Positions 10,606-64,000 of a DNA stretch of 64,000 bases are shown piece by piece. The notes below the pieces were generated by a model. It searched no databases. It was not told the DNA's origin and saw nothing but the letters and a program-made list of their open reading frames with translations. How positions within the stretch are numbered: the stretch's first letter is position 1; the number at the start of each line of letters is the position of its first letter. The position numbers and the translations under genes were made by a program. Source of the DNA: Pontivivens ytuae (lineage in GTDB: Bacteria; Pseudomonadota; Alphaproteobacteria; Rhodobacterales; Rhodobacteraceae); assembly GCF_015679265.1 (NCBI RefSeq), contig NZ_CP064942.1:1582001-1646000 (forward strand). The letters are read 5' to 3'.

Positions 10606-11018
10606 GTGCCCTTTGCTCAACACTATCCGGTTTGCCGGCATTGAGCGGGCAGGTATGTGGTCCAACACCGCTCAAGCCCTCGGTTGTTTGCACCAGATCT
10701 TGTCAAATCTAAGATCAAGCCATTGCTCGAGGCGGCTCCTGTGCCGGAGCCGAGCGAAGGTCGAAAAGCCCACATTGTCGTGCACCAGTCCTACCTCAAG
10801 GTTCGCGCTCGCAGCGAATGGCTGGAAAGCGGACTGCAAGCGCAGCGTAGCCGGATGCCGCCGAATGTCTCTTATATGGGCCGGTCCTCGACGTGCGTTC
10901 GAGCCAAGCGGCGGAAGATGCCTCGGTGCGTCTGAGGTTCACACAGATCACATCAACGACATTCAACCTGCAATAGGCTATCCCTCTCCGGAGTAGTTAA
11001 TATCCCGATAGAGCTTCC
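10606..11018. other. Intergenic region with hairpin and diverged repeat DNA
   Basis: No gene is supported in these 413 nt. GGCTCC-N6-GGAGCC forms a hairpin at 10734-10751. The stretch 10755-10870, with GCGAATGGCTGGAAAGCGGAC in its middle, resembles the intergenic repeat DNA often seen in Rhodobacterales and may be a third, badly diverged relative of the pair at 11432 and 13103. This last comparison is by eye only. Confidence 0.4.
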
Positions 11019-11408: not shown

Positions 11409-11431
11409 GGCGTAGTCGCTCTGTCCGCCTT

Positions 11432-11521
11432 CCGACCTTGGACGGTTCTCTTCGTTCGCAGGCGCGGCAGATGGCGGCTTTGGTCGGCGCACTGCAGCGG
11501 CGCGCTTGATGGTCAAACGGC
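11432..11521. repeat. Intergenic repeat, copy 1
   Basis: A 90-nt element runs from CCGACCTTGGACGG to GGTCAAACGGC and is closely similar to 13103-13193. Shared blocks include TTCGCAGGCGCGG/GTCGCAGGCGCGG, GCACTGCAGC and GCGCTTGATGGTC. Both copies lie between convergent genes, in the same orientation, flanking the RhtA/Lrp pair. They are probably a dispersed noncoding family. Confidence 0.65.
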
Positions 11522-13041: not shown

Positions 13042-13102
13042 GCCAGCACGTAGAAGCAGACGTCCGCAGCAACGCAGGAGATTTCGGCTTCGTCCCGCAC
13101 GT

Positions 13103-13193
13103 CCGACGTTGGACGGCTCTCTTCGGTCGCAGGCGCGGGCAATGGCAGCTTTGGTGGGCCGCACTGCAGCAGTGCGCTTGATGGTCGAACGGC
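13103..13193. repeat. Intergenic repeat, copy 2
   Basis: A 91-nt element is closely similar to 11432-11521, in the same orientation and again between convergent genes (Lrp and the EamA exporter). The rest of the 13042-13273 gap shows no gene. The pair could recombine and excise the RhtA/Lrp unit. Confidence 0.65.
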
Positions 13194-19430: not shown

Positions 19431-19459
19431 TTGACCTTTTCACGGTGCTGGAATTAGCT
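19431..19459 (+). promoter_or_regulatory. Candidate sigma-70 promoter for the B12 operon
   Basis: TTGACC (19431-19436) and TTAGCT (19454-19459) are separated by 17 nt, and the riboswitch begins about 10 nt later. Position and spacing fit, though the -10 is a moderate match. Confidence 0.45.
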
Positions 19460-19468
19460 GTCCGCGAT

Positions 19469-19656
19469 GGTTCTCGGCGGCGTTAAGTCGGTGAGATTAA
19501 ATGGGAACACGGTGCGGTGCAGCCATCATGCGCCAACTCCGTGACTGCCCCCGCAACTGTAGGCGGTGAGCGACCCGAAAAAGGCCACTGGGCCCCGGAT
19601 TGAAGGGGCTTGGGAAGGTTCGGGAGAGCTTTGACCCGCGAGTCAGGAGACCTGCC
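19469..19656 (+). promoter_or_regulatory. Cobalamin (B12) riboswitch
   Basis: The conserved B12 aptamer elements occur in order. GGGAACACGGTG lies at 19501-19512 and the core GACTGCCCCCGCAACTGTAG at 19542-19561. GGCCACTGG lies near 19582 and GGGAAGG at 19612-19618. The 3' box, whose last part is GTCAGGAGACCTGCC, ends at 19656. It is followed by a GGCGTC-ggt-GACGCC hairpin (19663-19677) and a CCGGG-N8-CCCGG hairpin (19693-19710) directly before AAGGAG (19711-19716), so translation control through sequestration of that site is likely. It predicts that the downstream importer operon is turned off by adenosylcobalamin, which points to cobalt or corrinoid supply. Confidence 0.93.
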
Positions 19657-19723
19657 ATCTCGGGCGTCGGTGACGCCGCAATGCAACTCGACCCGGGCGG
19701 GGTGTCCCGGAAGGAGAACCGAG

Positions 19724-60517: not shown

Positions 60518-61053
60518 GTTCCTGTTCACGGAGCCACGGCTGGTGATGCCCCCGGTCCTGGCCTGAACCATGGTCTCGGCGCTGCTACACGGCACCCTTG
60601 ACCGAAAAGCGACGCGAAGTTGCCTCGAGTGCTCGCCACCCCTTCGACAACCGACTAGACGAGGCTCTTCCTGCCTGGCCTGGACAGGCACATGAAGTCA
60701 TATATTGAGCATTGTTTGGCCGACAGGGAGATCTCAAATACTGGATCACAAATGGCCGCTCGCCCTCTATTTATAGACGGCGCTCTGCTTCAAGAGCCAT
60801 ATGACTGGAGGCCGGACTTGTCTGCCGGATTGGACTTCGCCCTGTATTTGATCTGAGCTTTACGCCGCATTTCAGGCTGCGTTTTCGAGCGATCCTGGAG
60901 GCGGCCTCCATCTCTCCATGCGAGAGTTCTCTCCAGCGATGGGCGTTGCCTGGTGAGGACGCTTCCTTGGGGTGTCGAGGTGATGTTGCGTGATGACTTG
61001 GTGCCGTTAGCAGATGCGTTATGCGTCTGCACGTCATCGATGGCGAACAAGTT
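60518..61053. other. Region without a confident gene
   Basis: Two overlapping minus-strand frames of 86-88 codons (60771-61050) and several plus-strand frames lack domains and ribosome sites. The DNA leads into the hairpin cluster and repeat array. Confidence 0.4.
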
Positions 61054-61172
61054 CCGCCCGCGCAGAGCGCGGGCGGAGTGCCTCTTTATCGAGGTAAGAG
61101 TGCGATCCCAGGATCATCCTGAGGATGGTCCCGACACTGGCGCCGCCACCCCGCAAGGTGGTGGATCGCACT
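61054..61172. ncRNA. Structured leader: nested hairpins before the tandem array
   Basis: Four perfect or near-perfect stems occur in 119 nt. CCGCCCGCGC-aga-GCGCGGGCGG (61054-61076) has 10 bp. CCTC-N6-GAGG spans 61081-61094. A long-range stem AGTGCGATCC (61099-61108) with GGATCGCACT (61163-61172) has 10 bp. Inside that stem lie CAGGAT-c-ATCCTG (61109-61121) and CCACC-N6-GGTGG (61146-61161). This makes a compact multi-branched fold abutting the first array unit at 61174. It could be a noncoding RNA or a protein-binding DNA structure. No known RNA family is recognised. Confidence 0.5.
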
Positions 61173-61173
61173 T

Positions 61174-62156
61174 ACCGCCTGTTCGGCGGCTCAGGGGCAC
61201 GGCCGGCGCACCGGCGACCGCATGGGCTTGGACGCTTGTCCGGACCCTTTGTTTTCTCAGCCGCCTGTTCGGCGGCTCATCATGCGCAGTTGCCTCTCGG
61301 ACAACTCCCGGGAAGGCGCGAACGCCTGTCGCCGTTTCTTTTCAGCCGCCTATCCGGCGGCTCATCGAGACCACGCTCGCCACCAGAACGGCGGCTTGTT
61401 CGAACCTGGCCTCCACCGCCTGTTCGGCGGCTCAGGGGCGCGGCCGGCGCACCGGCGACCGCATGGGCTTGGACGCTTGTCCGGACCCTTTGTTTTCTCA
61501 GCCGCCTGTTCGGCGGCTCATCATGCGCAGTTGCCTCTCGGACAACTCCCGGGAAGGCGCGAACGCCTGTCGCCGTTTCTTTTCAGCCGCCTATCCGGCG
61601 GCTCATCGAGACCACGCTCGCCACCAGAACGGCGGCTTGTTCGAACCTGGCCTCCACCGCCTGTTCGGCGGCTCAGGGGCGCGGCCGGCGCACCGGCGAC
61701 CGCATGGGCTTGGACGCTTGTCCGGACCCTTTGTTTTCTCAGCCGCCTGTTCGGCGGCTCATCATGCGCAGTTGCCTCTCGGACAACTCCCGGGAAGGCG
61801 CGAACGCCTGTCGCCGTTTCTTTTCAGCCGCCTATCCGGCGGCTCATCGAGACCACGCTCGCCACCAGAACGGCGGCTTGTTCGAACCTGGCCTCCACCG
61901 CCTGTTCGGCGGCTCAGGGGCGCGGCCGGCGCACCGGCGACCGCATGGGCTTGGACGCTTGTCCGGACCCTTTGTTTTCTCAGCCGCCTGTTCGGCGGCT
62001 CATCATGCGCAGTTGCCTCTCGACAACTCCCGGGAAGGCGCGAACGCCTGTCGCCGTTTCTTTTCAGCCGCCTATCCGGCGGCTCATCGAGACCACGCTC
62101 GCCACCAGAACGGCGGCTTGTTCGAACCTGGCCTCCACCGCCTGTTCGGCGGCTCA
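61174..62156. repeat. Four tandem 241-bp units built around GC hairpins
   Basis: Units begin at ACCGCCTGTTCGGCGGCTCA at 61174, 61415, 61656 and 61897, with a terminal partial copy at 62137. Copies are almost identical; copy 4 lacks one base and copy 1 has a base change near 61200. Each unit contains three hairpins of the form (A/G)CCGCC-TGTTC-GGCGG(C)T or CCGCC-TATCC-GGCGG, at 86, 85 and 70 nt spacing. Since 241 is not a multiple of 3 yet no stop occurs in any plus frame, all three frames stay open for over 1 kb. It has no coding character. It could be a noncoding RNA multimer or a binding-site array. Confidence 0.9.
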
Positions 62157-62235
62157 CACGAGAGCCGATGCTGCATCATGCCCCCTTGTGAACAAGAGTT
62201 GGTTCCATGAGCGGCTGGACGGAAACGCCAAGGTC

Positions 62236-62266
62236 AAAAAAAATGCATTCGATGGCGATTTTTTTT
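62236..62266. terminator. A8/T8 inverted repeat below the array
   Basis: AAAAAAAAT (62236-62244) and ATTTTTTTT (62258-62266) form a 9-bp AT stem, with CGCC (62226-62229) and GGCG (62254-62257) offering an alternative GC stem followed by T8. Read rightward the GGCG-A-T8 end looks like an intrinsic terminator for transcripts crossing the array. Confidence 0.45.
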
Positions 62267-62269
62267 CAT

Positions 62270-62845
62270 AGCCCGTCCTCTGGCGGCCTGTCGCTGTCGA
62301 TAATCAGATCTCGGAACGACGCCATTATATCCCGACGTCATCAACTCTGACGGTCGAGATAGGGAGGCCCCGCAGGGTTGAGGCGAAGCGGAGATGTCTC
62401 ATGCGGCGCGCTGACAGGGAGCGGAGGGAACGCTCAGTTCTCTCCCTGGGACGAGCGCGACGCACTGCCGAACCCATCCTTCCGGCGGCCTGATCCGACT
62501 GTTTCCAGGGGGTTCTTAGGTTCTAAGGGGTTTTAGGCGGAGATTTTTCAGGCTGTTCAAAGGCCTGAAAGCCGGGATCGCACCGGCACGCGGGTTTGGG
62601 GGTCGCCGATGCGGGTGGATCGCCATCGGATGCGGGACGATCCCGCGAGACTTGCAGCTCGGCCCGCATCCTTTGCGGCCCGCACCCCACGTCTTCCGTT
62701 CCTCTATCCGCCACAGCGATCCGATCTCCCGCACAGCTTGGTTTACTCGACGCCGATCTCGCGACCTTACCTGCCTGCGATATCCTATTTGATCTTCGTG
62801 TGACCGAGTATTCTGGCAGGACATCTAACTGCGCAGAGATAGCCT
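62270..62845. other. Mostly noncoding region with one doubtful frame
   Basis: A TTTCAGGC-N9-GCCTGAAA hairpin lies at about 62547-62571. A minus-strand frame (62523-62849, TTG start in a TTGA overlap with the next frame upstream) reads MKAISAQLDV to PEKSPPKTP. Its tail is rich in Pro, Ser and Lys and has no domain. Coding status is open. Confidence 0.35.
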
Positions 62846-63100: not shown

Positions 63101-63535
63101 TTAGTTGGGTTGGATGAGATCGAACGCCACGCTTTGTGCCTCACGCGCTGCGCGGACAGCGCAGAGTGCTGCATCGAGGGCACGGATCGGCACGCTGGCA
63201 GCGACGAGCATCTCGGCTTCGGGCGAGCGGATGATCTGCCAGGATCCGCCCGGCAGGTCATCGGGCTTCGGCTCCCAGCATCTGAACGAGCCAGCCGCGA
63301 TCCGGCCATCGATCTGCCCGAGCAGATGGTCGAGGTCGTCGCGGAACCGGTCGGTGAACAGCTCGCGCCTCTCGATCATGCGCAGCACACGTGCGCCGGC
63401 CAGCCGACGCGCCGGCGGCAGATGCGGCAGGACACGGTCCTGGAGTGCGATGCGTGCCTCACGCGCGGCCAGAAGAGCAGCCTCGATGAGCGTGGTGAGG
63501 CGGTCGCCGCTGCACGGATCAGCCATCGTCCTCAT
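63101..63535 (-). CDS. Hypothetical helical protein, 144 aa
   Basis: ATG 63535 is in an ATGA overlap with the PemK-like gene. The product is mainly helical and charged (LIEAALLAAREARIALQDRVLPHLPPARRLAGARVLRMIERRELFTDRFRDDLDHLLGQ), with AVRAAREAQSVAF at the end. No family is recognised. Overlap with a toxin-like gene suggests a two-gene unit, but it does not look like a MazE/PemI antitoxin, which is usually shorter and encoded first. Confidence 0.6.
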   Translation of the reverse strand: MRTMADPCSGDRLTTLIEAALLAAREARIALQDRVLPHLPPARRLAGARVLRMIERRELFTDRFRDDLDHLLGQIDGRIAAGSFRCWEPKPDDLPGGSWQIIRSPEAEMLVAASVPIRALDAALCAVRAAREAQSVAFDLIQPN

Positions 63536-64000
63536 GCGACACCTCCGAGCGTGACCAGCGGCTGCTGGCCGTTGCCACTGGCACAGTCGGCTTCGGCCAG
63601 CTCGACGCACCGCCGCGCGACGGCGATGTCCTTCTCCGCTTGGATGCGCGCCCGCACAGCCTGCATACGCGCCAGTGGCCCACCGATCAGCCGTCCGAGC
63701 ACCGGCGACCCCGTCGCCCCGCAGATCGCGAAGCCGCCATTCTGCAGCGACACGCTCAACCGCCGCTTGCCGACGAAGCGCGTCGACCGGTCGAGCCCCG
63801 CCGCGAGACGATCGCCGCGGGTGCGGACATGGGTCTCGTAGCCGATATTCGTCTTCCGCCGGGAGGTCGTGCCGTAAGCGAGGACGACGCGGCGGTCGTC
63901 ACCGCTCCGCTCGACATCGAGCACGAGACAGGGTCGGGCCTTCGGATGGCCAACATCATCTTCTTCGGCGAGCGGAAAGCGGAACGAGACGACATCGCCG
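63532..64000 (-). CDS. PemK/MazF-like protein (5' end cut by window)
   Basis: The frame is open from the right edge. The visible N-terminal part reads GDVVSFRFPLAEED and then ARPCLVLDVERSGDDRRVVLAYGT, matching the first strands of PemK/MazF-type proteins (GDVV.. and RP.LVL). A long C-terminal helix follows (ARMQAVRARIQAEKDIAVARRCVELAEADC). It is longer than usual for MazF toxins, so it may be a PemK-like domain with another role. The true start lies outside the window. Confidence 0.5.
   Translation of the reverse strand, partial: GDVVSFRFPLAEEDDVGHPKARPCLVLDVERSGDDRRVVLAYGTTSRRKTNIGYETHVRTRGDRLAAGLDRSTRFVGKRRLSVSLQNGGFAICGATGSPVLGRLIGGPLARMQAVRARIQAEKDIAVARRCVELAEADCASGNGQQPLVTLGGVA

Follow-up and report, generated by a model that had tools for sequence, protein, structure and literature searches.

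A tandem array of type I-F CRISPR-repeat-like hairpins on a tRNA-Pro island of Pontivivens ytuae and its relatives in Rhodobacterales

Analysis of a 64,000-nt stretch of the Pontivivens ytuae genome (the window; G000:C1:1582001-1646000 of a single-contig genome of 4.2 Mb), together with searches of related genomes and plasmids, revealed an unnamed family of CRISPR-repeat-like hairpin loci in Rhodobacterales, often located on mobile elements, with many of its loci on plasmids, integrative elements and islands. The tandem array of the window is among the largest seen in this analysis. Such hairpin arrays probably represent a class of small RNA, so far without a name, that is carried by mobile DNA.

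Tandem Repeats Finder (TRF) resolved the array with a period of 241 bp, 4.1 copies and 99% matches, in agreement with the first-pass annotation, which had described four near-identical units, each with three GC hairpins at 86/85/70-nt spacing; the hairpins are strong. Units 2 and 3 do not differ from each other; a single-base difference (position 26) marks unit 1, and unit 4 is one base short. Thirteen canonical hairpins were recognised in the array by a hairpin pattern, and the covariance model R1, built from 20 hairpins, likewise gave 13 matches, all on the minus strand; with 21 pattern matches against 0.28 expected, array and hairpins alike far exceed what chance would produce. The minus-strand consensus of the hairpins is CCGCC-GNRNA-GGCGG with TGAG in front; behind it, one copy has the tail CTGAGAAA and the others carry variant tails. 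The closing pair of H1 is G-U on this strand, and a further H1 copy with a different tail, at 61158, forms the end of the array. The linkers between the hairpins fold on their own. The structured flank holds a 13-pair hairpin (61051-61079) and a long-range stem (61099-61108/61163-61172), and a plus-strand terminator-like site lies at 61051. On the other side, the A8...T8 near-palindrome could act as a bidirectional terminator, judging by its sequence. The coordinates of these features are collected in Table 1.

Table 1. Features of the hairpin array and its surroundings, in window coordinates; bits are scores with the covariance model R1.
Feature	Position	Strand	Basis
Duplicated segment, copy A (1.9 kb)	60810..62732		genome self-comparison
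Strongly structured flank, 3' side of the minus-strand array	60934..61174		folding z -4.8 plus / -3.6 minus
Array, four 241-bp units (last 240) and a 20-nt partial unit	61174..62156	-	TRF, hairpin pattern, R1
Hairpin H3, loop GAACA, tail CTGAGAAA	unit 1 61244..61284; again 61485, 61726, 61967	-	R1 42.9 bits
Hairpin H2, loop GGATA, tail CTGAAAAG	unit 1 61329..61369; again 61570, 61811, 62051	-	R1 39.7 bits
Hairpin H1, loop GAACA, tail TGGAGG	61399..61439; again 61640, 61881, 62121	-	R1 30.3-35.6 bits
A8...T8 near-palindrome, 5' side of the minus-strand array	62236..62266		read from the sequence by eye
PemK/MazF-like gene, 177 aa (L014:32-565)	63532..64000, past the window end	-	PF02452, E 0.0038, below its cut-off

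All three plus-strand frames of the array lack stop codons, as the first-pass annotation had stressed. This openness is real and, unlike the array and the hairpins, not remarkable. It was shared by 10% of 5000 dinucleotide shuffles of the 241-bp unit, and the window has further three-frame-open stretches of 241 nt or longer, 8 on the plus strand and 10 on the minus strand; moreover, because 241 = 1 mod 3, it amounts to a single fact about one unit. A coding repeat was rejected on the grounds that 241 is not divisible by three, that shuffles are so often open, and that a protein search with an array ORF, in which scoring was confined to the 8000 candidates with the most shared words, gave no match.

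Self-comparison of the genome revealed that the array lies within a duplicated segment with sharp edges, the second copy of which (copy B; G000:C1:1552265-1553947) is inverted, located 90 kb away and composed of 3 units instead of 4, being otherwise identical to copy A; the two copies contain 10 and 13 hairpins, respectively. Recent amplification, proposed at first pass, is borne out by these two island copies, which differ by one 241-bp unit; the inverted second copy itself and the minus strand as the informative one go beyond that annotation. Since both copies share the first-unit base variant and the last-unit deletion, the segment must have been copied as a whole, with an inner unit gained or lost afterwards. 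Neither a target-site duplication nor a terminal inverted repeat was recognised by eye at the duplicated segment. Copies A and B both belong to a ~103-kb island integrated at tRNA-Pro. Its borders are marked by identical 53-bp direct copies of the 3' portion of tRNA-Pro(CGG) (1543805-1543857 and 1647096-1647148), and a Phage_integrase gene adjoins the tRNA. One end of the island lies 8.4 kb from copy B, the opposite end 2.4 kb from copy A. Among the cargo are genes for siderophores and iron uptake, including IucA_IucC, a TonB receptor, Peripla_BP_2 and imelysin.

At the DNA level, the window region had no match among plasmids and phages at E 1e-5; the search of 101 relatives returned its own genome and one short match, and that of 394 family genomes returned 50 matching at E<=0.01, its own included and all others short. 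Three of these short-match genomes (G332, G226 and G117) contain hairpin loci. The search of relatives and plasmids for the 241-bp unit, recommended at first pass, found no DNA relative of the whole unit in the collections searched; it is the hairpin alone that recurs, in 15 further loci of 14 genomes or plasmids, with irregular spacing and unrelated linkers (the two clusters of Roseovarius counted once). Scanning 345 family genomes with Rfam family RF01317 gave one genome over the cut-off (G178, three matches 88 nt apart) and 72 at E<=1, the window's own included. Eighteen RF01317 loci were retrieved, and nine, judged noncoding by eye, were kept as members (L117-L123, L127, L133); their tails are mostly window-like and their prefixes more varied. 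L128 and L130, with R1 scores of 27-28 bits, are not among the members, and L124-L126, L129, L131, L132 and L134 nowhere exceed 20.5 bits with R1. The loci comprise four hairpins in G178 (88-bp unit), seven in G235 (148-bp unit), six in G117 (157-bp unit), two each in G332, G358 and G248, and one each in G226, G177 and G232. Application of R1 to 230 relatives gave 117 genomes at E<=0.01. Nine further stretches were read, the others (up to 28.2 bits, e.g. G143 and G029) being left uncounted, and three of the nine are new members: G050 (two hairpins), G005:C1 (three) and a second G178 locus, on C14 (one). The other six (G126, G051, G167, G142, G164 and G005:C3) were rejected as coding by eye. 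Searches with short GC-rich hairpins are noisy: matches that read as coding reach 31 bits with R1, and outside the family no genome among the listed matches exceeds 27.5 bits, below this false-positive level. The assignment of the G-numbered genomes to the order Rhodobacterales is based on their named relatives.

The remaining members were found on plasmids. A blast search with the G235 array led to the plasmid of Sulfitobacter sp. OXR-159, which carries 18 hairpins in ~245-bp units; each unit has three hairpins, like those of the window, and the linkers are unrelated. A blast search with the Sulfitobacter repeat led in turn to a Roseovarius indicus plasmid with two clusters and to a plasmid of Thioclava nitratireducens. 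When the 41-nt window hairpin was compared by blast with 72,556 plasmids, the Sulfitobacter array ranked first (27/27 identical, E 8e-5), and the runners-up among the best 40 of 45 records were Thioclava electrotropha (E 0.01), left out of the locus count as a blast match only, and Roseovarius (E 0.1). Exact hairpin patterns gave no match in viral contigs; the five matches of a two-hairpin pattern there were all rejected by eye as coding Ala/Glu-rich repeats. A literature search found no tandem I-F-like hairpin family of Rhodobacterales in the titles or abstracts listed. On the Thioclava plasmid (L187, between 8300 and 9058), the intergenic region that contains the hairpin array also has other GC hairpins (e.g. 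CCCCCGCATGTGCGGGG) beyond the array.

Picking by stem only yielded 60 hairpin entries in 15 stretches (with window copies A and B taken as separate stretches). G...A pentaloops are present in 47 of these entries, and all 47 follow the GNRNA rule, in loci that had originally been found with models favouring such loops; the other 13 are mostly neighbouring partial stems. On the hairpin strand, stem changes amount to G-U pairs in 10 of 120 cells and four unpaired cells at the outermost pair, and the G005 stem contains one T-A for C-G swap. No covariation was found in the hairpin pair count, the members having been chosen by stem pattern. Overall, stem and tail sequences are conserved and linkers are not, with one to 18 hairpins per locus at a spacing of 47-184 nt. 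The short motif GGGATCGCAC was discarded, its frequency being at chance.

Several properties point to the minus strand as the probable sense strand of the array RNA. Compared with shuffles in six rotations of the unit, minus-strand folding gave z values of -3.4 to -4.0, and plus-strand folding -2.0 to -2.7; a z of -3.5 was reached by 2 of 320 random windows. T-run terminators on the hairpin strand occur within 220 nt downstream of 5 of 17 loci (G178-C7, G117, G005 and both Roseovarius clusters), upstream of none of the 17, and downstream on the opposite strand in a single case, which is the window array. Promoter-like boxes were seen by eye immediately 5' of the first hairpin in G178 and G005; at the window array, neither a promoter on its 5' side nor a terminator on the hairpin strand was found. 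Among the functions offered at first pass, a multimeric RNA survives, moved from the plus to the minus strand, and nothing was found to support a partition or replication site. Of the 28 modules in the first set, 9 had a significant closing outer stem (Fisher p 8e-7, with modules within a locus non-independent); of 15 held-out modules only 1 did (Fisher p 0.63), and the three window modules all lacked it. A general outer stem or three-way junction was therefore rejected, and no larger common fold is established.

Mobile-element or toxin genes are found near 8 of the 15 further loci. They include a MobA_MobL relaxase (G235), a VirD2-type relaxase (G005), AAA_25 and an integrase recognised by eye, with no Pfam match (G332), a D5_N primase and a resolvase (G177), a DDE transposase (G358), ParDE (Sulfitobacter), CcdA/CcdB and a tyrosine recombinase homologous to one of the window's island (Roseovarius), and an integrase, a PemK-like toxin and a homologue of the window island's methyltransferase (Thioclava). 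For both G178 loci, G117, G050, G226, G248 and G232, where few or no neighbours were scanned, no mobile gene was identified close by, and the surroundings of G117 and G050 look by eye like ordinary metabolic genes. No protein family is common to all the neighbourhoods compared.

In a permissive Rfam search (E<=5), RF01317 (CRISPR-DR4) was the sole family named for the array, matching each unit on its minus strand. The best window hairpin, H3 of unit 1 (61253-61280), aligns over 28 nt end to end, including stem, pentaloop and AGAAA tail; the Csy4 substrate likewise has a loop of the GNRNA kind. The score of the window hairpin is 24.7 bits against a cut-off of 35, with an E of 0.52 over the whole window, and in 60 kb of other stretches (one with copy B) a chance family reached a better E of 0.041; taken alone, the match of the window array is weak. 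The cut-off is passed by two relatives, namely G178 (35.1 bits) and Sulfitobacter (39.4 and 36.1 bits). No Rfam family exceeds its cut-off in the array, so that identity with a known repeat family, which would speak against the first-pass reading, appeared neither here nor in the plasmid and phage DNA search. Within the window only a cobalamin riboswitch elsewhere passes (19451-19673, plus strand, 123.8 bits, E 1.2e-30). Arrays of true I-F type with similar repeats were found in Vitreoscilla, where csy1-3/cas6f are annotated, and on a plasmid of Pseudomonas sp. Leaf58 (CCGCC stem, 60-nt spacing, L189:7696-8276); no cas gene is annotated within 8 kb of the Leaf58 array, and csy3 lies elsewhere on the same plasmid. 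Type I-F arrays possess a regular 60-nt spacing, unique spacers of ~32 nt and cas genes, whereas the hairpin loci are spaced more variably and the window linkers are duplicated along with the hairpins. Profiles of Cas1 and Csy4 (Cas6f) had no match in the window's genome, and Csy4 had none in 228 family genomes, the window's own included; the same Pfam model does detect Cas6f of Vitreoscilla, with an E of 2e-58. The first-pass statement that the array does not fit CRISPR holds for the spacing and the missing Cas1 and Csy4, but the best Rfam match is precisely the type I-F CRISPR repeat.

One explanation of this likeness is a strict RNA anti-CRISPR (Racr): the hairpins would mimic I-F repeats, the recipient's Cas6f would bind and cut them, and with Cas6f and Cas7f tied up the arriving element would be protected. 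The closest experimentally tested precedent is RacrIF1, a prophage-borne solitary I-F repeat to which Cas6f and Cas7f bind; it blocks Cascade, and its stem-loop is essential (PMC10651486). The arrays share with RacrIF1 and other solitary repeat units an I-F-repeat-like hairpin without adjacent cas genes in an intergenic position on a mobile element, which in the window is the tRNA-Pro island with its 53-bp att repeats and integrase; some relatives also have their own terminator, as in Racr. The end-to-end repeat match, the relatives above the RF01317 cut-off and the true I-F-type arrays with similar repeats speak in the same direction. Against it stand the tandem arrangement, with 13 and 10 hairpins in copies A and B and up to 18 elsewhere at irregular spacing where Racr units are solitary, the sub-threshold score of the window hairpin, and the sampled hosts, in which no I-F system was found: Cas6f is missing from the window's genome and from the 228 family genomes, and none of 36 plasmids with a Csy3 match belongs to Rhodobacterales. 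A strict Racr is accordingly considered unlikely, and since Cas1 and Csy4 were not found in the genome, nor Csy4 in any of the 228, the array was classed as RNA-decoy-like rather than as a Racr. Protein-sequestering RNAs of the CsrB/RsmZ type offer another parallel, as they present many copies of one hairpin in one RNA, which is presumed here as well; their loops obey a GGA rule, which is lacking in the loops of the window family.

The amplification itself might instead be neutral, a functional three-hairpin RNA gene having been multiplied by recombination into a satellite and copied to the other end of the island. The 3 versus 4 units of otherwise identical copies and the relatives with one to three hairpins (G226, G177, G332 and G005) are consistent with this, but separate tandem expansions in G235 (148 bp), G117 (157 bp), Thioclava and Sulfitobacter (245 bp) suggest that high copy number is favoured, and we regard the neutral satellite, too, as improbable. 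Much less probable is an element acting at the DNA level, such as a transfer origin or hairpins for single-strand initiation or recombination: relaxase genes do lie near the G235 and G005 arrays and the inverted copies are close to the island ends, but terminators downstream on one strand, G-U stem variants and the GNRNA rule argue against it, the orientation to neighbours varies, and at the other loci no relaxase was found among the selected neighbours scanned or annotated. REP/BIME palindromes are likewise short, GC-rich and intergenic; they are, however, scattered genome-wide, whereas the 23 exact copies of the window hairpin are all in the two arrays, with two more at 2 mismatches, and no Y1 transposase, as in REP/BIME with RAYT, was found in the window's genome. 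Least credible of all is a type III-like toxin-antitoxin pair in which the array RNA would be the antitoxin and the PemK-like 177-aa protein the toxin. PemK-like genes do occur in the array stretches of the window's genome, G235, Roseovarius and Thioclava, but at 1.4-6.6 kb from the arrays and in varying orientation, and no homologue was present in the other stretches compared. In the window the gene lies 1.4 kb off with the array downstream, and not, as in type III systems, with the repeat RNA directly upstream of the toxin; furthermore, in the window's genome and Roseovarius it overlaps a second small gene, which would be the more natural partner.

The reading we prefer, on balance neither better nor worse than even, is a noncoding RNA that presents many copies of one protein-binding hairpin, like an RNA decoy. 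A repeated protein-binding site is what would be expected from conserved stems and tails between unconserved linkers, the absence of a protein gene accompanying all the loci compared and a high copy number that was raised independently at several loci. According to this decoy model, the window array would be a noncoding RNA locus of the mobile island, and its transcript would come from the minus strand; each unit would present three copies of one hairpin to a binding protein, the many copies would titrate or occupy that partner as a multivalent decoy, comparable to an RNA anti-CRISPR or a CsrB-type sponge, and recombination between units would alter the number of sites. More tentatively, and with rather less confidence than in the decoy as such, the loci may form a shared class of multivalent mobile-element RNA of Rhodobacterales whose Cas6f-site-like hairpin serves a different host RNA-binding protein or nuclease, in counter-defence or control, having arisen from the CRISPR-repeat blueprint in hosts that lack this CRISPR. 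If transcribed, the loci would constitute a new RNA family, often of mobile elements, and either a multi-copy anti-CRISPR RNA directed against systems outside the sampled hosts or a pointer to a Rhodobacterales RNA-binding protein that sees nearly the same hairpin as Cas6f. Automatic annotation could mistake such loci for CRISPR repeats.

The tRNA-Pro island contains further repeated sequences. A 5-kb module is present twice in the genome with 97% identity, on the island (L011:10534-15483) and beside tRNA-Ser(CGA) (G000:C1:3179605-3184554); besides an HTH protein and one that is PemK-like, it encodes proteins of 725 and 461 aa that are tyrosine recombinase-like by eye but matched no Pfam family, and its relatives in G116 and G349 are also located beside tRNA-Ser. 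The array is not, as a rule, part of this recombinase module, since R1 gave no match above 15 bits at the tRNA-Ser copy or in the other stretches that contain relatives of the module (L097-L106). At the edge of the copy A segment, 48 bp (window 62728-62775) match the start of the 725-aa recombinase-like gene with 81% identity, inverted with respect to copy B. A 92-bp direct repeat, 87% identical, occurs in the island cargo (window 11431-11521 and 13102-13193). Finally, a 45-bp dispersed island repeat resembling a small palindromic repeat was found at L012:6415-6458, L012:8119-8162 and window 10802-10846, with 87-89% identity.
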